DNA from: Thioalkalivibrio sp. ALJ12 | GTDB taxonomy: Bacteria; Pseudomonadota; Gammaproteobacteria; Ectothiorhodospirales; Ectothiorhodospiraceae | Assembly (NCBI RefSeq): GCF_000378305.1 | Contig: NZ_KB899538.1 | Location: 124,001 to 188,000, forward strand | Length of the DNA stretch: 64,000 nt | Direction of reading: 5' to 3' | Part shown: positions 5,658-18,150 of the stretch, piece by piece | Position numbering within the stretch: position 1 is the first letter of the stretch | How the letters are laid out: each line of letters opens with the position of its first letter | Translations under genes and position numbers: made by a program | The notes under the pieces: model-generated | Told to the model about the DNA's origin: nothing | The model's input: the letters and a program-made list of their open reading frames with translations, nothing else | The model's database searches: none

Positions 5658-7889
5658 TTACTTCTTGCTGCTGGTCCGGCGCTTGGTCGCAGTCGTACCG
5701 GTCTTGCCGTCGTTCAGGCTGATGATCTGCGTCTTGCTGGTGCGGTGGCGGTAGATTTCGCGCAGATAGCGAATCGCCTGCTTGACGTTCTCTCGACTCA
5801 GCCGGATGTCATTGATCGAGACGAAGCTCTGCTCGTCGCTGCACATCTCGCGATATTTTTTCTCGTACATCGGTTTGATCGCGTACCAATTGGTATCAAG
5901 GATGCGCGTCGGGTTCTCGAACTCGTTGAGCATGTCGTCCACGCGCTGTTCGTCGAATTCCTCGGCCCGGATCAGGTCCAGAACCGCATGGTCGAGGGTG
6001 TCATCGAAGCGGGTCTTGTCATTGGCGAAGCAGCGCTTGATGTAGGCAACGAACAGGGTCAGGAAGTCGTCCGACAGGCAGGGGCTCTTCACCACCAGGG
6101 TGGTCAGCGACAGGTTGGCCGAGGCCCCGATGACCAGGGCGTAGCGCTTGAGCGTGGTGTTCGGGAACAGCCCGTTCAGGTGCGTCTTCAGCCGGTTCAG
6201 GTCCATGTAGGACAGCTTGTAGTCCTTGGGCAGCGACAGGATCGTGACGATAGACGAGCAGTTCTTGAAGAAGTGCAGGTCGCGCAGATGGACCGCGTCC
6301 ATGCTCGACTCCTTGTATTTCTTCAAGGCCTCGCGGTAGCGCGGGGCATCGATCGGCAGCAGGCTGATGCCCTCGATCGCCTCGGTCTGCTTGTTGAAAT
6401 GCGGCAGATCGATGGAGCGATAAAACAGGTCATCGATATCCAGCGAACCCTGCCCGACCGGGGCCTGCTCGCCGGTCGCCACCTCGGACTCCGCGTAGGC
6501 CACGGCCACCGGCCCCGCCAGGCTCATGAAGAGATCGTTCGCATCCAGGCGGATCGTCTCGCCGATGTCGACCCCCGCACGGCGGAAGTAGTCTTCATCG
6601 TAGTCCGTGGTGACCGCCTGCGCGGTCAGGATGTTGAAGATCTGCTGGGAGATGTACTGGTTGGCGTACTTCTCCATGGCGTTGACATCGACGTTGCGGA
6701 TATTGCCGTCGTCGGTCTCCTCCGCGTAGCGCATGATGTCGTTGGAGATCAGCATCATCGCGTTCCAGGGGCGGATGCGATGCATCATGTCCTCGTCGCG
6801 GGTCTCCTCGGCCTCGAAGTTGTAGGAGAAATCCCATTCCTCCGCGAGATACTTGCACAGCAGGCGCCCGGCATTGATGTGCAGCGCCTCGGACATCTCC
6901 ACCCGGTTGTCCTGGATGTTCGGCAGGATGCAGATACCGGCGGCAAAGATCGGCTCGAACACGAACGAGTGGTCGCGGTTGGCCTTGTCGCGCTTTTCCA
7001 GCTTCGGGTCGAAGGTCTTGCGCATGTAGGAGTACTGTTGCGCCAGCCCGAATTCCGAGGCCATGCCGGAGCCCGTACCGCCGCCGGCGCTGAAGATGTA
7101 GAAGTACAGCCGCGACTGGTTGGCCTTGATCCCGCAGGAATCGATCAGATAGGAGTGGATGAACTTCCAGTCCTCGTTGGAGAACTGATCGGTGTCCTTG
7201 TTCAGGATGATGCGCGCCAGGTACTGGCCCAGGATCGGCGCGTTACCGGCCCCGCCGGCATGCACCTCGGACAGATCCATGATCTTCATCTTGTTGTAGT
7301 TATCGATGAAGTTGTCCTGCCCTGCACGACTGGAGAAGCGGATGCGCCCCTCGATGTCCTTGTCGAGATCGCCCAGCATCACCATCGGCTCGATCAGGAA
7401 TACCGGCTTCACCGCATTGGACGGCGGCAGGTTCAGGCTCTTGCGAATCCAGCGCAGCGGCCGCATCTCCTTCTCGCGGCCACCATTTTCTTCGTTGTCC
7501 AGCTCGCGCATGTATTCCGAGCGCGCGCTGTGAACCAGCGCCGCCACATCGAGGGCGACGTTGGAGCCGCACCGGCCAACACCGATCAGGCACACGGACG
7601 GGAAGCACTGCTGCTTGTGTTCGTCGGCGGCGCTCCCCTTGGTCAGTCGCGGGAATACCGTGCTGCGCAGGTGATCGAGATTTTCGAGGATCCGGTCGAG
7701 GTCGCGCTCGGTAAAGTAGTGCGGTTCTGCGCGATCCTGGGTGGTGCGCATCGACGCGCGACTGGCACCCGCGGCCGGCATGGCCATGCGCGGCCGCGAC
7801 GGTGGCGCCACGACCCCTTCAGTCAGGACGTTGTCCGCATCCTCGGGCGGGTTCTCCGGCGTGGTATCGCTGGGGTTGGACGTGGACAT
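5658..7889 (-). CDS. Tubulin/FtsZ-superfamily GTPase, large solitary form
   Basis: 743 residues. After a disordered tail (1-55) and a helical region comes CLIGVGRCGSN (100-110), which matches the first nucleotide-binding loop of tubulin and FtsZ. AGGAGN at 211-216 resembles the T3 loop. SAGGGTGSG at 267-275 is the tubulin signature T4 loop. NAMMLISND (376-384) and NVDVNAMEKY (399-408) sit where the T6 and catalytic T7 loops are expected. The C-terminal part (about 420-743) has no domain I recognise and ends in a basic Lys/Arg/Thr tail. It is far longer than FtsZ (about 390) and is not in a cell-division cluster. The GTP-binding loops look intact, so GTP binding and polymerisation are plausible. 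The start is supported by AGGAG eight bases upstream. Confidence 0.82.
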   Translation of the reverse strand: MSTSNPSDTTPENPPEDADNVLTEGVVAPPSRPRMAMPAAGASRASMRTTQDRAEPHYFTERDLDRILENLDHLRSTVFPRLTKGSAADEHKQQCFPSVCLIGVGRCGSNVALDVAALVHSARSEYMRELDNEENGGREKEMRPLRWIRKSLNLPPSNAVKPVFLIEPMVMLGDLDKDIEGRIRFSSRAGQDNFIDNYNKMKIMDLSEVHAGGAGNAPILGQYLARIILNKDTDQFSNEDWKFIHSYLIDSCGIKANQSRLYFYIFSAGGGTGSGMASEFGLAQQYSYMRKTFDPKLEKRDKANRDHSFVFEPIFAAGICILPNIQDNRVEMSEALHINAGRLLCKYLAEEWDFSYNFEAEETRDEDMMHRIRPWNAMMLISNDIMRYAEETDDGNIRNVDVNAMEKYANQYISQQIFNILTAQAVTTDYDEDYFRRAGVDIGETIRLDANDLFMSLAGPVAVAYAESEVATGEQAPVGQGSLDIDDLFYRSIDLPHFNKQTEAIEGISLLPIDAPRYREALKKYKESSMDAVHLRDLHFFKNCSSIVTILSLPKDYKLSYMDLNRLKTHLNGLFPNTTLKRYALVIGASANLSLTTLVVKSPCLSDDFLTLFVAYIKRCFANDKTRFDDTLDHAVLDLIRAEEFDEQRVDDMLNEFENPTRILDTNWYAIKPMYEKKYREMCSDEQSFVSINDIRLSRENVKQAIRYLREIYRHRTSKTQIISLNDGKTGTTATKRRTSSKK

Positions 7890-7943
7890 GCCTGTACTCC
7901 TGTATGAATCGCCAAAAATGAGCGCTGGTTCCTTGCGCCTCGC

Positions 7944-8098: not shown

Positions 8099-8308
8099 TC
8101 AGCCGTCGCGCTCGACGCGCTCGAGCACCTGGGAGACATGATCACCCTTGCGGTAATTCGGCAGATCACGCTGCATGTCGGCCAGGGCCTTTTCGCGCGC
8201 CTGCTCGCTGTCATACCAGCGATAGGACTCCCAGTCGGGCCCCAGCAGGTGCGGCATGGCCATGGTGCTGCCTTCCGGCAGGCGGATGCGGATTCCGTAA
8301 CGTTTCAT
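8099..8308 (-). CDS. Small conserved hypothetical protein
   Basis: 69 residues, soluble and charged, beginning MKRYGIRIRLPEGSTMAMPH, with no signal peptide or cysteines. I do not recognise a family. It lies upstream of the tubulin-like gene on the same strand, 209 bases away, so the two may be separate transcripts. Codon use is like its neighbours and the frame is clean, so I take it as a real small gene. It could be a cytoplasmic regulator or accessory protein, but nothing in the sequence indicates its role. Confidence 0.6.
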   Translation of the reverse strand: MKRYGIRIRLPEGSTMAMPHLLGPDWESYRWYDSEQAREKALADMQRDLPNYRKGDHVSQVLERVERDG

Positions 8309-8449: not shown

Positions 8450-8526
8450 TGGTGGCTACGCCCTGATTCGAACAGGGGACCCCATCATTATGAGTGATGT
8501 GCTCTAACCAGCTGAGCTACGTAGCC
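8450..8526 (-). tRNA. tRNA-Met (anticodon CAT), elongator
   Basis: 77 bases including an encoded CCA. On the minus strand the acceptor stem GGCTACG pairs with CGTAGCC. The D arm contains AGCTCAGCTGGTTAGAGC, the anticodon stem CATCA/TGATG encloses loop CTCATAA with CAT as anticodon, and the T arm has TTCGAAT. The acceptor pairing with a normal first base pair and the close match to the known elongator Met tRNA identify it as elongator and not initiator. A promoter and a terminator flank it closely, so it is a single-gene transcript. Confidence 0.95.
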
Positions 8527-11688: not shown

Positions 11689-13860
11689 CTATTCGTCGGC
11701 CGGGATGTCGCAGCGGTTGGGCAGATCGAAGTGCTCGATGCCCTCGAGGATACCGCGCGCATAGGTCGCGTCAGCAAAGAAGATGCGCTGGAATCCGCGC
11801 AGCCCTTCCAGCTCCGGCTGGTGATTCCCGACCACGACCCCGAGCAGCCGCCCACGCAGCATATCCTCGTCGTTACCGGAGTCCCCGGCCACCAGCACAT
11901 GTTCGAGCGGGATGCCCCACTTGTCAGACAGGTAGCGCACCGCGAGCCCCTTGGAGGCGCGCACCGGAAGCAGATCCAAGTAGCGCTTGTGCGAATAGAT
12001 CACGCGCGCGTGCAGGTCTTCGCGGTACAAGCGGGTCTCGATGCTCTCGGCATCCAGCTCCCCCGGAGGATCGACGAAGAAACTCACCTTGAACGCCCGC
12101 TGGTCCTCCTTGGGCTGCAGCTCCAGCCCGGGCACCTTCAGCAGGCACTCGCGCAGGCGGTCGGGCTCCCAGCGGTGGCTGATGTGCCGTGCCCAGCCGC
12201 GATCCTCGGTCCGCTCCGCCCCGTAGTGGATCTCGCTGCCCACCGAGGTAATCCAGACGTCCGGCGCGGGCACCCCGTGCTCTTCCAGCACGGCCGCGGC
12301 GGAATCCAGCCGCCGGCCCGTGGCCACACCGAATACCACCTGCTTGCGGTGGCGTTTGAGCCAGGCGACAAAGGCCCGCGTGGCCTTGTCGTTGCCCAGC
12401 AGGGTGTTGTCGATGTCCGTGATCACGGCACGGTCGGCCTTGGCCAGCCGACCGGAGGTCGAGCGCTGTTCGCGCCGTGTCTGGCGCACCTCCTTGCTGA
12501 GCGCCTTGACCAACCTCACGTACTTCTCGGCATGTCCGTCCCAGGAGTAGTGCTGGCGCACGCCCTTCAGGCCCGCGCGCGAATAGCGCTGCCAGCGCGG
12601 GCGGTCCGCGAGGATGCCCTGGATCGCATCGGCGATCCCTTCCGGGTCCAGCGGGTCGACCAGCAACCCGTTGTGGCAGCGCGAGATGATCTCTTCGGGC
12701 CCCCCGTCATTGGTGGCGACGATCGGGGCCCCGCTGGCCGCGGCCTCGATCAGGGTCAGGCCAAACGGCTCGGTCAGCGCTGGATTGACGAACACCCCCT
12801 TGCTGGACGCGACCAGGCGGTAGAGGTCCGGCACGTCCTCGGGGCTGTGGTGCTTCGGGTAGGCCACACGGCCGTAGAGGTCGTGGCGGTCGATGCGCAG
12901 CAGCAGGTCCTTTAGTACGTCGCGCGCACCCTTGTCGAGGTCGCGGATGTCATCGCGATTGCCGGCCACGATCACCAGATTGGCGTTCTCCCGCAGCCAC
13001 TCGTTGCCGGCGTAGGCCTCGACCAGGGCGCGGATGTTCTTGCGCTCGTCGGCCCTGGAGAGCGCCATGATCAGCGGGCGATCCGGCTTTTGCAGAAACC
13101 GCCGGATCTCGGGCCAGATCGGCGGCTTGCGCTGGCCGCGTTTGGGCGGGTAGAAGCGTTCGAGGTCGGTCCCGGGTGGGATCACCTCCATGCGTTCGGG
13201 CTGGTAGTTGTCGTAGGTCGCGTACTGCTCGCCAATCTCCTGGCGAGTGCTGGCAATCACCCGATGGGAATGGGCCAGGGCCTCTTCCTCGGCGTGGATG
13301 CGGGTGGCGATGTTATAGCGCGACTCGATGTCGTCGTCGGACATCCCGCCCTCGCGCAGACGCTCGCGCTTGACCCGACCCAGGGAATGCCCGGTCTGGA
13401 GCATCGGCGCGCCCAGCAGGTTGGACAGGCGCACCGCCACATGCCCGGCATCGGCGTAGTGCCCGTGAATCACGTCCGGGCGCAGCCCCACCTCGCGGAT
13501 ATGCCCGAGGGCGTTGTCGGCGAAGCAGTCGAGATAGGGCCAGAGCTTTTCCTTGCGCAGGTAGCGTTTGGGTCCGCAATCCAGACGCACAATAAAGGCG
13601 CCGTCGCCGAGTGGCTCCTCGCGTTCGGCGTAGTCGTCCGCGACCCGGCTGTCGACAATGCGCCGTGTGAGCAGATCGACCCGCCCCACCTGCGGGTGTC
13701 GCGCCAGCGCGCGCGCCAGCTCGACTACGTACAGCGTCTGCCCACCGGTGTCGGCGTCGCGCCCCAGCTCCAGATCCCGCCCCCGCATCAAGCCGTGGAC
13801 ACTGATCAGGACGAGGTACAGGCCCTCCCCATCACGGGCCTTGCTCTGGGTCTTTTTCAT
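11689..13860 (-). CDS. sps: Sucrose-phosphate synthase with C-terminal sucrose-phosphatase domain
   Basis: 723 residues. The GT4 glycosyltransferase part (about 14-455) begins with the family motif DADTGGQTLYVVELA and has the E-x7-E donor site EPFGLTLIE at 364-372. The C-terminal HAD domain keeps both signature motifs, DIDNT at 482-486 and GDSGNDEDM near 658, so unlike many plant-type enzymes it may be a true bifunctional synthase/phosphatase. It would make sucrose from UDP-glucose and fructose-6-phosphate. Sucrose is a known minor compatible solute in haloalkaliphilic sulfur oxidisers, which suits the inferred host. The upstream invertase gene (13 bases away) is probably in the same transcript, pairing synthesis with breakdown. 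Confidence 0.93.
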   Translation of the reverse strand: MKKTQSKARDGEGLYLVLISVHGLMRGRDLELGRDADTGGQTLYVVELARALARHPQVGRVDLLTRRIVDSRVADDYAEREEPLGDGAFIVRLDCGPKRYLRKEKLWPYLDCFADNALGHIREVGLRPDVIHGHYADAGHVAVRLSNLLGAPMLQTGHSLGRVKRERLREGGMSDDDIESRYNIATRIHAEEEALAHSHRVIASTRQEIGEQYATYDNYQPERMEVIPPGTDLERFYPPKRGQRKPPIWPEIRRFLQKPDRPLIMALSRADERKNIRALVEAYAGNEWLRENANLVIVAGNRDDIRDLDKGARDVLKDLLLRIDRHDLYGRVAYPKHHSPEDVPDLYRLVASSKGVFVNPALTEPFGLTLIEAAASGAPIVATNDGGPEEIISRCHNGLLVDPLDPEGIADAIQGILADRPRWQRYSRAGLKGVRQHYSWDGHAEKYVRLVKALSKEVRQTRREQRSTSGRLAKADRAVITDIDNTLLGNDKATRAFVAWLKRHRKQVVFGVATGRRLDSAAAVLEEHGVPAPDVWITSVGSEIHYGAERTEDRGWARHISHRWEPDRLRECLLKVPGLELQPKEDQRAFKVSFFVDPPGELDAESIETRLYREDLHARVIYSHKRYLDLLPVRASKGLAVRYLSDKWGIPLEHVLVAGDSGNDEDMLRGRLLGVVVGNHQPELEGLRGFQRIFFADATYARGILEGIEHFDLPNRCDIPADE

Positions 13861-13873
13861 GGACGCACATGCC

Positions 13874-15271
13874 TCATGGCAATTCGGGTTCGGGGCTGTC
13901 GAACAGGCTCATGGTATCGGGGTTGTCGAGCAGGGCCTGTGAAACCAGGACGGCGGTAGCCGACCAGGTCTGCTGATAGTTGGCGCGCCGACCGATCAAC
14001 CGGCCGTGACGGCCGTCGTAATACTCCGGCCAGTCGTCGCGATGCAGCCGTTCGGCCGCCACTGCATGCACGCTGCGCGCGAGATCCGGGCGCCCGACCC
14101 GCAGCGCGGCACCGGTAAACGCCCACAGCAACGCCGGCCAGTTGCCACCATTGTGGTAGGACCATGGCGTGTTCTTGGGGTCGGAGCCGGTCAGCAGGCG
14201 CCATTCCTCGCCGCTCATCGCCGGGTAGCAGATCTTCACCGGCATGGTCCCGATCAGGTCCTCGAAGCGCTGCTCGAAGGTCTGCATGATCGAGCGCGAC
14301 TGGCGCTCGTCGGCCAGCCCGAACAGAACCGCCAGCAGATTGCCGAAGCTGAAGAAGCGAAAATCCATCCGCCCCGGCCCCAGGTTGCCGACCAGATACC
14401 CGCTCTCCGAGGGCAGCCAGTCCACCAGCCAGTCAGGGATGCTCTCGGGATAGATGTTCAGCGCATTCTCCGACTCGTGGCCGAAGTGCTCGGTACGGTA
14501 GCGGTGGATGTGGTTCAGTCGCTCGAGATCCAGCCAGTAGTAGTGGCGGATGTAATCGGACAGTTGCCGGGTACGGATCGCGGACTGCTCGCAGAGCTGC
14601 TCGGAGTCGGTATCGCAGGGTTCCAGCATCGCCAAGGAGGCCTTCAGCATGCCGTAGAACAGCGCCTGAATCTCCAGCGGGTGGCCGAACACGCCCATGC
14701 GCCGGTCGATCATGAAGCTGCCGTCCGGCACCAGCAGGGTCGGGAAGACCTCGAAGCGGTCCTGCAGACAGATACTGAGGATCAACCGGATGCCGCGCTG
14801 CACATCCTGGCTTTTGATGAAGTCGTGATCTCCGGTGCGGTTCTGATAGGCGCGCAGCAGCAGCACCCACCACATCATCGAATCCACCGGGGCCACGCGG
14901 CCGATCGCGCGATCGCCGAAATCGGCCGCCAGCCCCTCGCGACCGTTCTCGTCGGTGAACACGCGAAAGCTCGCCGGCATCACGCGCGGCAGACGGCGGT
15001 GACCCTCGATTTCTTCCTGGGTATCGCGGATTTGCAGGATCAGCGACAGGAAGTCGCGCACCACCTCGGGCTCGTCGTTCAGCAGGTAGACGAGCCCGGA
15101 GGGCACGAAATCGCGGATAAAGCAGTCCGCGTAGTTGTCCGCAGGCGCGCGGGCATCCAGGCTGGCGACGGTCCCCACCGTACGGCCTTGATAGCGCACC
15201 TCGGCATCACGAAGAAGCTGGAAGGCGGACTCCAGCGTCGGGTTTCGGGCATCGGGCGGAAGCTGGTTCAT
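13874..15271 (-). CDS. GH100 alkaline/neutral invertase-like glycoside hydrolase
   Basis: 465 residues starting at MNQLPPDARN. The frame is open further upstream, but those codons overlap the EAL gene and are low-complexity. Family GH100 features include DNYADCFIRDFVPSG near 50, GRVAPVDSMMWWVLLL near 130 and the C-terminal WSYHNGGNWP. Enzymes of this family hydrolyse sucrose to glucose and fructose in the cytoplasm and have no signal peptide, matching this protein. Together with the sucrose synthase it could balance the cellular sucrose pool. A related specificity (for example for a sucrose analogue) is possible. Confidence 0.88.
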   Translation of the reverse strand: MNQLPPDARNPTLESAFQLLRDAEVRYQGRTVGTVASLDARAPADNYADCFIRDFVPSGLVYLLNDEPEVVRDFLSLILQIRDTQEEIEGHRRLPRVMPASFRVFTDENGREGLAADFGDRAIGRVAPVDSMMWWVLLLRAYQNRTGDHDFIKSQDVQRGIRLILSICLQDRFEVFPTLLVPDGSFMIDRRMGVFGHPLEIQALFYGMLKASLAMLEPCDTDSEQLCEQSAIRTRQLSDYIRHYYWLDLERLNHIHRYRTEHFGHESENALNIYPESIPDWLVDWLPSESGYLVGNLGPGRMDFRFFSFGNLLAVLFGLADERQSRSIMQTFEQRFEDLIGTMPVKICYPAMSGEEWRLLTGSDPKNTPWSYHNGGNWPALLWAFTGAALRVGRPDLARSVHAVAAERLHRDDWPEYYDGRHGRLIGRRANYQQTWSATAVLVSQALLDNPDTMSLFDSPEPELP

Positions 15272-15329
15272 ACCCTTGAGTCTAAGGGAGACACGGGTCG
15301 GATGTGCACCGCCCCAGAGAAACCACGGT

Positions 15330-16406
15330 TCAGGCCTCCGGATGCACGGGCATGGGCGGCTCGGCGGCCGGACGGGCGAACAGGTATCCCTGGCAGTAGT
15401 CGACCTGGTCCTTGAGCCAGCGCCACTCCTCCACCGTCTCGATGCCCTCGGCGACGGTCTGGATCTCGAGCTCGCGCGCCAGTTCGGTGATCTTGCCGAG
15501 AATCTTCTGCTGATAGATATCACCGTCGATGCCACTGACCAGCTGGCGGTCGATCTTCACGTAGTCCGGGCGCAGCTGCGAAAGCATGTTCAGCGAGGCA
15601 TAACCCGCGCCGAGATCGTCGAGTGCCACCTGGAAACCGGCACGGCGATAGCGATCGACGATGCGCGAGAGGTGATCGACATCGGTCACGTAGTCGCTCT
15701 CGATCACCTCGAACACGAAACCGCTCGGACCATCCCCGTCCGGACGCGACAGGATCTCGCGCACCGTCGTCTCCAGACAGAACGCCGGGTCGTAGATCGC
15801 CGTGGGGTTGAAGTTGATGAACAGCCGACTCCCGATCCCGCGTTCGGTGGCGCGGCGAATTGCGTTGATCCGCGCCGAGCGGTCGAGATGGAACAGCAGC
15901 TCGGCCGCCCGCGCCGTCTTGAACAACTCATTCGGCGGGATCACGTCGCCGGCGGGCGTGCGGGCACGCACCAGCGCCTCGTAGGCGAACACCTCTTCGG
16001 GCTGGGCGGCGTGCACGATCGGCTGGAAATGAAAGTCCAGCGAGTCGTTCGCGAGGATCGCCGCCAGATCGCGGGCGTTGTGGCGAGCGATCAGCGTGGA
16101 CAGCAGGTGGGTGTCCTGCAGATGGGCGAGGCTGAAGGTCTCGTCGCCCGGGACGAAGGTCGCCCGACAACCGGACTGTTCCGCACCGCTCAAGGCCTGC
16201 TCCAAGCGCACCAGGGTGTCACCCAGCCCCCCGTTATTGTCGACCGGCATTGCAAGAATGCCGGAGACGGGTTCGCTGCAGGGGAGTTGTTCCTCCACCA
16301 TGCGGCTGCGCAAGACTGCGCGGGTATGCGCCAGAACCGGCGCGAGATACAGGGTGCCGGATTCCGCCGGCAGGAGATCGATACGTTCGCAATCCGGGCA
16401 ACTCAC
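15330..16406 (-). CDS. EAL-domain cyclic-di-GMP phosphodiesterase
   Basis: 358 residues from a GTG at 16406 that has GGAGG five bases upstream; no ATG fits better. The N-terminal 100 residues carry CPDC and other cysteines and no known domain. The EAL domain spans about 115-350 and its catalytic set is complete: EALVR at 143, NFNP, the metal-binding Glu in VIESDY, LDDLGAGYASL, VKID and VAEGIE. Hydrolytic activity is therefore likely. The CPDCERI N-terminus might bind a metal, but I see only one such pair. The gene is divergent from msrB with about 105 bases between them. Confidence 0.9.
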   Translation of the reverse strand: MSCPDCERIDLLPAESGTLYLAPVLAHTRAVLRSRMVEEQLPCSEPVSGILAMPVDNNGGLGDTLVRLEQALSGAEQSGCRATFVPGDETFSLAHLQDTHLLSTLIARHNARDLAAILANDSLDFHFQPIVHAAQPEEVFAYEALVRARTPAGDVIPPNELFKTARAAELLFHLDRSARINAIRRATERGIGSRLFINFNPTAIYDPAFCLETTVREILSRPDGDGPSGFVFEVIESDYVTDVDHLSRIVDRYRRAGFQVALDDLGAGYASLNMLSQLRPDYVKIDRQLVSGIDGDIYQQKILGKITELARELEIQTVAEGIETVEEWRWLKDQVDYCQGYLFARPAAEPPMPVHPEA

Positions 16407-16511
16407 GACCACCTCCAGCGGTCCATCGTATCCAGTCGAGACCCTCCGGGCAGTGCTACGATCCCGGTCATTCTCGGTTTGTACGCACCATAGCACCACC
16501 CGGAGGCTGCA

Positions 16512-16907
16512 ATGAATAACCCAGATCATCCCGACGACGACCTGCGCGCACGCCTGACACCCGAGCAGTACCGCATCGCCCGCGAAGGCGGGACCGAGCG
16601 CCCATTCACCGGGGCCTATCACGACCACAAGGCGGATGGCGTCTATCACTGCGTAGCCTGCGGTACCGCGCTGTTCGACTCCACCACCAAGTTCGATTCC
16701 GGCTCCGGATGGCCCAGCTATACGGCCCCTGCCGCGCCCGACGCCGTGAGCGAGTACCGCGACCGCTCGCTGGGCATGGAACGCACCGAGGTCCGCTGCG
16801 CGGGCTGCGACTCGCACCTGGGACACGTCTTCCCCGACGGCCCGCCCCCGACCGGACTGCGTTACTGCATCAACTCCGCCGTGCTCGATTTTCGCCCACG
16901 CGCCTGA
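16512..16907 (+). CDS. msrB: Peptide-methionine (R)-S-oxide reductase MsrB
   Basis: 131 residues, full length for a cytoplasmic MsrB. Zinc ligands are CVAC (47, 50) and CAGC (96, 99), and the catalytic Cys119 lies in [11 protein letters not shown]. The [10 protein letters not shown] block is diagnostic. It reduces methionine-R-sulfoxide in proteins and is one of several thiol and redox repair genes in the window. GGAGG sits close upstream of the ATG. The MFS gene follows after 31 bases and may share the transcript. Confidence 0.96.
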
Positions 16908-16938
16908 GTACGTCGCCACTCCCGTGGAAAGGAATCCC

Positions 16939-18150
16939 GTGTCCTCTTCGATCACCCCGCGCGAACGCGTGAATGTCCTGCTGCTGGCCACGGCACAGGC
17001 CCTGTTTCTGATCGCCGCGGTCACCGTGATGACACTGAGCGGCGTGGTCGGGGAGCGCCTGGCCACGGACCCGGCCCTGGCCACCCTGCCGGTCGCCGCG
17101 ATGATGGTCGGGACCCTGGTCACCACCCTGCCCGCCTCGCTGTTCATGAAGCGCTTCGGGCGGCGCACCGGCTTCCTGCTGGGCACCAGCGTGGGCGGGG
17201 TCGGTGGCGCCGCACTGGCGGCGGCCGGGGTCTTCGCGGAGGCCTTCTGGCTGTTCGTGCTCGGCAACCTGCTGCTGGGGGCCTACCAGGCGTTCGCGAT
17301 GTACTACCGCTTTGCCGCCGCCGACGTGGCCAGCTCCGCCTTTCGCCCGCGAGCGATCTCACTGGTGATGGCCGGCGGGGTCGTGGCCGCCTTCCTCGGC
17401 CCGTGGAACGCCCACCATGCCCAGGCCCTGCTGCCGGACACGCCGGAGGCCGGACCCTACCTGGTCCTCGGCGCCCTGGCCCTGCTGGCGATGGCGCTGC
17501 TGGCCTGGCTGCGCGTGCCGGCGCCGCCGCCAGAGGAACGCGGGCCCGCCCGGCCGATGGCCGAGATCCTGCCGCAGGGTCGCTTCCTTGTGGCCCTGAC
17601 CGCGGCCGCACTGGGCTATGCGGTCATGGTGCTGCTGATGACGGCGACCCCGCTGGCCATGCGCCAGGCGGACTTCGACATGGGTCAGGTCGCACTGGTG
17701 ATGCAGTGGCACGTGCTGGGGATGTTCGCGCCTTCGTTTGTGACCGGCCACCTGATCACCCGCCTTGGGATCACACGCATCCTGGCGCTCGGCAATGCGC
17801 TGGTGCTGTTCAGCGTGGCGGTTGCCGCGCACGGGGAGACGCTGGGGCATTTCTGGCTGGCGCTGTTCCTGCTGGGGGTCGGCTGGAACTTCCTGTTCAT
17901 TGGCGGCAGCACGCTGCTGACGACCACGCATACCGCCACCGAGAAGGGCAAGGTCCAGGGTGTGAACGACCTGACCATCTTCACGCTGGTCACGGCCGGC
18001 TCGCTGCTGGCTGGCGCACTGCTGCGACCACTGGGCTGGGACGGCCTGAACCTGGCCATGCTGCCGGTCGTCGCGCTGCTGACCATCGCCGTCGCCTGGC
18101 TCTGGTTCGACGACACCCGCGCCTCATCCGCCCCACGCGCCGAACCCTGA
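16939..18150 (+). CDS. MFS transporter, 12 membrane segments
   Basis: 403 residues from a GTG preceded by AAGGA; a GTG 15 bases earlier is also open. About twelve hydrophobic helices are visible, with the FMKRFGRRTG loop between helices 2 and 3 matching the MFS motif A. The substrate is unknown; the family includes many drug and metabolite exporters. The last ten residues (RASSAPRAEP) are identical to the end of the convergent RND pump gene at 19054, because both genes end inside the arms of one inverted repeat. The native C-terminus may therefore have been replaced. Confidence 0.85.
   Translation: MSSSITPRERVNVLLLATAQALFLIAAVTVMTLSGVVGERLATDPALATLPVAAMMVGTLVTTLPASLFMKRFGRRTGFLLGTSVGGVGGAALAAAGVFAEAFWLFVLGNLLLGAYQAFAMYYRFAAADVASSAFRPRAISLVMAGGVVAAFLGPWNAHHAQALLPDTPEAGPYLVLGALALLAMALLAWLRVPAPPPEERGPARPMAEILPQGRFLVALTAAALGYAVMVLLMTATPLAMRQADFDMGQVALVMQWHVLGMFAPSFVTGHLITRLGITRILALGNALVLFSVAVAAHGETLGHFWLALFLLGVGWNFLFIGGSTLLTTTHTATEKGKVQGVNDLTIFTLVTAGSLLAGALLRPLGWDGLNLAMLPVVALLTIAVAWLWFDDTRASSAPRAEP

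Follow-up and report, generated by a model that had tools for sequence, protein, structure and literature searches.

A putative FtsZl2-type tubulin-superfamily protein in Thioalkalivibrio and the c-di-GMP genes that adjoin its relatives in some genera

The gene and its setting

In this study, we analysed a stretch of 64,000 nucleotides from Thioalkalivibrio sp. ALJ12 (contig NZ_KB899538.1, positions 124,001 to 188,000 of the forward strand; hereafter the window) for a gene whose product had been described, from the letters of the DNA, as a solitary tubulin/FtsZ-superfamily protein with intact GTP loops. The open reading frame of 743 codons is a real gene, as had been claimed, and begins with ATG (Table 1). 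Its product is best regarded as a probable member of the family FtsZ-like 2 (FtsZl2), all tested features of the protein being in agreement with that assignment. The family was defined by Makarova and Koonin in 2010 with PFL_1302 as its type and is proteobacterial according to the available text of that paper (PMC2875224). The FtsZl2 gene of the window has a GC3 of 0.88, compared with 0.77–0.90 in eight other genes of the window, and an overall GC content of 0.61 versus 0.665 for the window as a whole. Values of dN/dS in eight pairs of relatives were 0.02–0.12, and the gene is therefore under purifying selection.

The three neighbours scanned at the locus encode GCS2, AstE/aspartoacylase and DUF481 proteins. 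No gene of a division or plasmid-segregation cluster was recognised among them, in agreement with the earlier placement of the gene outside any such cluster. The single match to PF00091 in the host genome of 2.78 Mb is FtsZ (C1:14806-15282), approximately 109 kb from the start of the window. The description of the gene as solitary is correct for this locus, but it does not hold for the family as a whole, members of which have c-di-GMP gene neighbours in some genera.

Two further features separate the FtsZl2 gene from the DUF481 gene. One is a tRNA-Met (CAT) gene (8450..8526, minus strand), located 0.56 kb upstream of the FtsZl2 gene, with a terminator-like hairpin after it; the other is a small, 69-aa ORF (8099..8308, minus strand) for which no Pfam match was found. 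The tRNA-Met gene is also present in three of the four other Thioalkalivibrio loci (absent from L010), and the family of the small ORF in all four. Elsewhere in the window there is a compact sucrose cluster (11689..15535, minus strand), in which a sucrose-synthase-type glycosyltransferase fused to a sucrose-6-phosphatase adjoins a GH100 neutral invertase; our guess is that it serves salt protection. An EAL-domain ORF (15330..17267, minus strand) lies 7.4 kb from the FtsZl2 gene, and its match is limited to residues 401–633, so that its true start may be further in.

Table 1. Coordinates in the window of the FtsZl2 gene, its ribosome-binding site and the parts of the encoded protein
Feature	Position	Strand	Basis
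Putative FtsZl2-type tubulin-superfamily GTPase, 743 aa	5658..7889	-	ORF, relatives, motifs, alignment
Ribosome-binding site AGGAG, 7 nt ahead of the ATG	7897..7901	-	sequence
Variable N-terminal extension, residues 1–57, 0 of 57 columns invariant	7719..7889	-	107-row alignment
T1 loop GVGRCGSN, residues 103–110	7560..7583	-	motif and alignment
T3 region GAGNAPILGQYLA, residues 213–225 (GAGN at 213)	7215..7253	-	motif and alignment
T4 tubulin signature GGGTGSG, residues 269–275	7065..7085	-	motif and alignment
T6 candidate LISND, residues 380–384, invariant in 107 rows	6738..6752	-	alignment; analogy to FtsZ
Helix H7 candidate, residues 402–428 (409–427 invariant)	6606..6686	-	alignment; inferred from FtsZ
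T7 synergy loop ETIRLDANDLFMSLAG, residues 444–459, D449 and D452 invariant	6513..6560	-	alignment
C-terminal domain, residues 480–725, 115 of 246 columns invariant in 107 rows	5715..6452	-	Pfam, alignment
Basic tail, residues 726–743, without conservation	5661..5714	-	alignment

Motif order, conservation and superfamily membership

The three GTP loops of the sequence-only reading, GVGRCGSN (residue 103), GAGN (213) and GGGTGSG (269), were borne out in that order, and no loss of GTP-binding residues was found in the 107 rows of the family alignment. The stretches around T3 and T4, residues 409–427 of the H7 candidate and residues 444–460 around T7 are invariant in all 107 rows. The stretch around T6 is nearly so, varying in 1 of 13 columns, and that around T1 varies in 3 of 11. 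The T6 and H7 candidates were placed by the layout that we take to be that of FtsZ. A regular expression for T7 matched 23 of 29 FtsZ sequences, and that for T6 only one of the 29, so that the T6 assignment rests on position and invariance. The assignment of NVDVNAME as a T7-like loop was wrong, since its eight columns are 71–100% conserved, whereas the T7 loop at residues 444–459 is invariant. The NVDVNAME stretch overlaps the start of the H7 candidate. In a weak profile alignment, LDANDLF of the FtsZl2 protein stands opposite VDFADVR of FtsZ.

The GTPase and C-terminal parts are both highly conserved, with 108 of 205, 103 of 170 and 115 of 246 columns invariant in the 107 rows, while the first 57 and last 18 residues have no invariant column. 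A long C-terminal part had been noted and is present, although its size had been overestimated at roughly 320 residues; approximately 283 residues follow T7, tail included. The basic tail likewise exists but, as noted, is not a conserved element of the family. No Pfam family matched the C-terminal domain above its cut-off.

The assignment to the tubulin/FtsZ superfamily, as a GTPase other than FtsZ with intact loops, is backed by the order of the motifs together with their invariance. Ordered and spaced T1, T3 and T4 motifs were found in all 29 FtsZ sequences and all 107 family members, and in none of 1192 other called genes. Among 7247 other ORFs, counted after removal of family fragments, a single one had the ordered motifs, and this was the organism's own FtsZ.

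Sequence profiles (Pfam, HMM and profile–profile comparison) gave no proof of membership. The Pfam families Tubulin and Tubulin_2 were matched in all 21 members scanned, but the matches fell short of the curated cut-offs (best E-values 0.0025 and 0.0013); the window protein itself scored 12.7 bits against Tubulin_2 (PF13809), whose cut-off is 27. Profile–profile alignment (hhalign) against the 29 FtsZ sequences gave a score of 30.1 (E 0.008), which is within the range of 48 control families (best score 32.3, E 0.0067; second control E 0.0079), and the comparison run the other way round, a direction without controls, gave a score of 36.7 (E 0.0011). For comparison, an HHpred E-value of 0.0033 for PFL_1302 against PF00091 is given in the available text of PMC2875224. 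An HMM of Pseudomonadota FtsZ failed to single out the family, whose best rank was 37 of 891 hits (1281 genes). A PDB search returned no match to any tubulin, and AlphaFold2 models were of unusably low confidence, with pLDDT values of 35.3 (full length, 61 rows) and 34.7 (residues 58–478, 59 rows). Searches of NCBIfam and PADLOC gave nothing usable for the window protein, and no PHROG matched above chance. DUF6562 (E 0.009 in the window protein, matches in 10 of 21 members) was below its own cut-off. Taken on motif order and invariance, the placement of the protein in the tubulin/FtsZ superfamily is probably correct.

Distribution of the family and its gene neighbourhoods

A search of genome_contigs (bacteria and archaea) identified 388 relatives, of which the best 80 were all gammaproteobacterial by title, from Thioalkalivibrio, Marinobacter, Halomonadaceae, Alkalimonas, Rheinheimera, Alishewanella, Marinifaba and Pseudomonas. 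The gene is sparsely distributed overall, being present in 2 of 369 evenly drawn genomes of the class and 9 of 398 of the phylum (own genome included in both; all nine in the same class). It is frequent in certain genera, with 83 of 119 sampled genomes of genus g273, which we take to be Pseudomonas on the basis of matches of up to 100% between its loci and those of named Pseudomonas, and 29 of 48 genomes of family f188, all in genus g286, for which Shewanella is our guess. Three of 12 other genomes of the window's genus also have it. A quick, midpoint-rooted tree places the Thioalkalivibrio sequences with those of Marinobacter (support 89), within a clade that also includes Halomonadaceae (100); this grouping suggests horizontal arrival of the gene in Thioalkalivibrio. 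The gene has probably also been lost at times, as in one genome (G825) only profile positions 384–727 are present and in another (G746, L116:6909-9607) it exists as separate pieces only, apparently a decayed copy.

The Pseudomonas piscis member (L082) has 74% identity to the window protein over residues 58–734. We take P. piscis to be near P. protegens. Four sites with the GGGTG pattern were found in P. piscis, one of which is the GGGTGSG of that gene and two of which read GGGTGTG, so that another counterpart of PFL_1302 might strictly still exist there. Matching of chromosomal position to the PFL_1302 locus number was rejected, since positions are too variable. A 'tubulin-like protein' in a CRISPRi paper on P. 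fluorescens is, in the available text, FtsZ itself (PMC6828691).

For the neighbourhood analysis, 92 loci (those of the 80 best named relatives and 12 more) were gene-called with a simple codon model, and 89 were used, L051, L052 and L072 being left out because gene calling had missed the family gene there. Six seeds were used in BLAST to find GGDEF/EAL genes, which filled 35 of 174 slots directly beside the FtsZl2 gene, 7 of 170 in second place and 9 of 816 farther out. These counts overstate the enrichment because the loci are related. When distinct gene families (≥300 bp) were counted instead, GGDEF/EAL domains occurred in 4 of 47 adjacent families versus 2 of the 235 families confined to more distant slots, a modest difference (Fisher p = 0.008). 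Per genome, 20–62 GGDEF matches were found in 20 genomes, or about 0.5–1.8 per 100 kb.

In these loci, the association is confined to particular genera. A c-di-GMP gene is the direct neighbour in 27 of 53 Pseudomonas loci (with six more in second place), 7 of 10 g286 loci and one of three Alkalimonas loci, leaving 26, 3 and 2 loci, respectively, without one. None of the 23 other loci, Thioalkalivibrio and G048 included, has a direct c-di-GMP neighbour, although in G048 a c-di-GMP gene occupies the second place. On the tree, at least 11 changes between adjacent and non-adjacent states are needed (3 of 88 rows not scored). Four architectures were distinguished, namely MHYT-GGDEF-EAL and NMT1-GGDEF in Pseudomonas, ammonium transporter-PAS-GGDEF-EAL in g286 and propeller-GGDEF in one Alkalimonas locus, with the domains confirmed by Pfam in one or two representatives of each kind. 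The MHYT protein is presumably NbdA-like. In addition, L119 has a PAS-GGDEF-EAL gene two genes from the FtsZl2 gene. Forty-one of 42 c-di-GMP neighbours have the same direction as the FtsZl2 gene, which occurs on either side of three of the four kinds. Both orders of the FtsZl2 and MHYT-GGDEF-EAL genes occur in Pseudomonas, and in g286 the FtsZl2 and ammonium transporter-GGDEF-EAL genes swap order between the same flanks, c27 and c40 (L117, L121, L123 and L127 versus L124–L126).

Similar counts were made in sampled genomes. Both the FtsZl2 gene and an MHYT protein (best hits >150 bits, with weaker MHYT matches excluded) occur in 70 g273 genomes, in 67 of which the two share a strand and lie no more than 6 kb apart (66 upstream, 1 downstream); the downstream order was seen in 11 named Pseudomonas loci. 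In g286, 25 genomes have both genes, 20 of them within 6 kb (16 downstream, 4 upstream; G900, with the c-di-GMP gene in two pieces, is among the 20) and five not. The partner is also present where the FtsZl2 gene is missing, in 21 of 36 such g273 genomes versus 70 of 83 with the gene (p = 0.004, uncorrected for kinship) and in 15 of 19 such f188 genomes. Its flanks in those genomes were similar in all five g273 loci read (L159–L163) and in two of four g286 loci (L166 and L167, the latter by one flank only as the contig ends). At L168 and L169, the c-di-GMP gene lies by a usual neighbour while the FtsZl2 gene sits elsewhere in the genome. The names given to flank genes (RapA, MFS, GppA-like, Bra/Liv) are our own reading. 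Since the partner keeps similar flanks in several genomes without the FtsZl2 gene, the c-di-GMP gene looks resident, and the FtsZl2 gene appears to be the one that comes, goes and changes side.

Proposed function and comparison with known systems

Our main reading, to which we give a probability of roughly 0.6, is that the window protein is a chromosomal FtsZl2 member that forms GTP-dependent filaments in an accessory role, and is not a division protein; the tie to c-di-GMP is the weaker part of the proposal. Conservation of the motifs implies that GTP would be bound, and the invariant T7 aspartates imply, by analogy with FtsZ and tubulin, head-to-tail stacking with hydrolysis. In a protein of this kind, presumed cytoplasmic, GTP would be held between subunits and the T7 aspartates of one subunit would complete the GTPase site of the next, so that stacking with hydrolysis at the interface could give rise to dynamic filaments. 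The conserved C-terminal domain may make a contact specific to the family, and the two variable ends, the N-terminus and the tail, may serve for flexibility or anchoring. The presence of FtsZ in the cell, and the absence of the FtsZl2 gene from many close relatives, point to an accessory cytoskeletal task rather than division.

With less weight, and from the gene neighbourhoods of relatives, we propose that in Pseudomonas and one other genus, and perhaps in further lineages, this accessory role is linked to c-di-GMP signalling in matters of attachment, envelope or motility state. The adjoining diguanylate cyclases and phosphodiesterases, with their MHYT, NMT1, ammonium transporter or beta-propeller sensors, might set the assembly or position of the filament; alternatively, the filament might position the enzymes, and a GTP filament would thus link sensing to a change in attachment or envelope. 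We regard such coupling, for the lineages concerned, as a tentative and rather doubtful proposal. Coincidence, in which a few insertion-tolerant sites happen to hold a c-di-GMP gene and the protein is unrelated to c-di-GMP in function, has a likelihood that we place slightly short of even. The similar flanks of c-di-GMP genes in genomes without the FtsZl2 gene, the situation at L168 and L169, and the 23 other loci with no direct neighbour are all in keeping with coincidence. It is less easily reconciled with unrelated sites in different genera holding c-di-GMP genes of different kinds, or with an FtsZl2 gene that changes side and yet is almost always codirectional with its neighbour.

Other roles for the protein were considered. 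A GTP switch that has kept its loops but does not polymerise is unlikely, although the inserts between T1 and T4 and the large extra domain could block filament contacts. The T7 aspartates would complete the GTPase site of the neighbouring subunit and so matter only when subunits stack, and their invariance in 107 rows argues against such a switch. Still less probable is a regulator or brake of FtsZ that enters or titrates the division ring. Shared superfamily motifs, intact GTP loops and the presence of FtsZ in the same cell would suit that role, but none of the 92 neighbourhoods was found to contain ftsZ (best E-value with the FtsZ HMM 0.17; most neighbours are without annotation), many close relatives do without the FtsZl2 gene and its C-terminal domain is unlike FtsZ. 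That the gene belongs to a mobile element and encodes a TubZ-like protein of segregation or of a phage is very improbable. Horizontal spread is likely from the grouping of Thioalkalivibrio with Marinobacter and Halomonadaceae, and the tRNA-Met gene upstream would be in keeping with a mobile element; against this, no relative was found by tblastn in 72,556 plasmid and 50,697 phage records or in viral contigs scanned with two peptide patterns, and there was no PHROG match above chance.

Among 119 sampled genomes of one large genus, 83 carry a member of this tubulin-superfamily family, which was named in 2010, and no experiment on FtsZl2, nor any link from it to c-di-GMP, was found in a literature whose coverage leaves out most subscription journals and preprints. 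The only earlier hint of such a link that we met is a referee's remark, in the available text of PMC2875224, that one FtsZl1 gene (Pirellula staleyi) adjoins a diguanylate phosphodiesterase. The corrected T7 gives exact residues to mutate, and the recurrent c-di-GMP neighbours offer a first testable function, for which biofilm and motility assays in laboratory strains are ready.

The protein had been proposed as a new type, which it is not, as it fits FtsZl2 even in how long its C-terminal region is (PMC2875224); the window holds a probable member of a family that had already been named. As described in the available part of that paper, FtsZl2 proteins keep T1, T4, T6, T7 and H7, have inserts between T1 and T4, and end in a region of ~300 aa that is mixed alpha/beta, with no coiled coil and no known relatives. 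The window protein is likewise proteobacterial, appears to keep the same elements (T6, H7 and T7 by FtsZ analogy), and shares the inserts, a C-terminal region of about 300 residues, the motif GGGTG[ST]G and an origin in FtsZ-bearing genomes. A difference lies in the gene neighbourhoods of the family, as no associated or conserved neighbour genes are reported for FtsZl2 in that text, whereas we found c-di-GMP genes enriched beside members in some genera.

The window protein shares with FtsZ the T1, T3, T4 and T7 motifs and their order. The spacing is wider, with T1 to T4 spanning residues 103–269 in the window protein versus 29–117 in the organism's own FtsZ (T3 at 81) and T7 at residue 446 versus 218; the C-terminal domain is without resemblance, and the FtsZl2 gene is missing from many close relatives. 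FtsZl1/Tubulin_2 proteins resemble the family in that all 21 members scanned match that Pfam family below its threshold, but no vWA, kinase or OmpA neighbour was recognised among the neighbours scanned or read, and T6 to T7 are present here, whereas they are not identifiable in FtsZl1 according to the available text of PMC2875224. The available part of a 2023 phylogeny leaves out the Tubulin_2 FtsZ-like group and lacks the name FtsZl (PMC9871819). TubZ and PhuZ share the superfamily only, and differ in that no plasmid or phage copy of FtsZl2 was found, nor was any TubZ-type partner gene recognised beside the FtsZl2 gene in the window.
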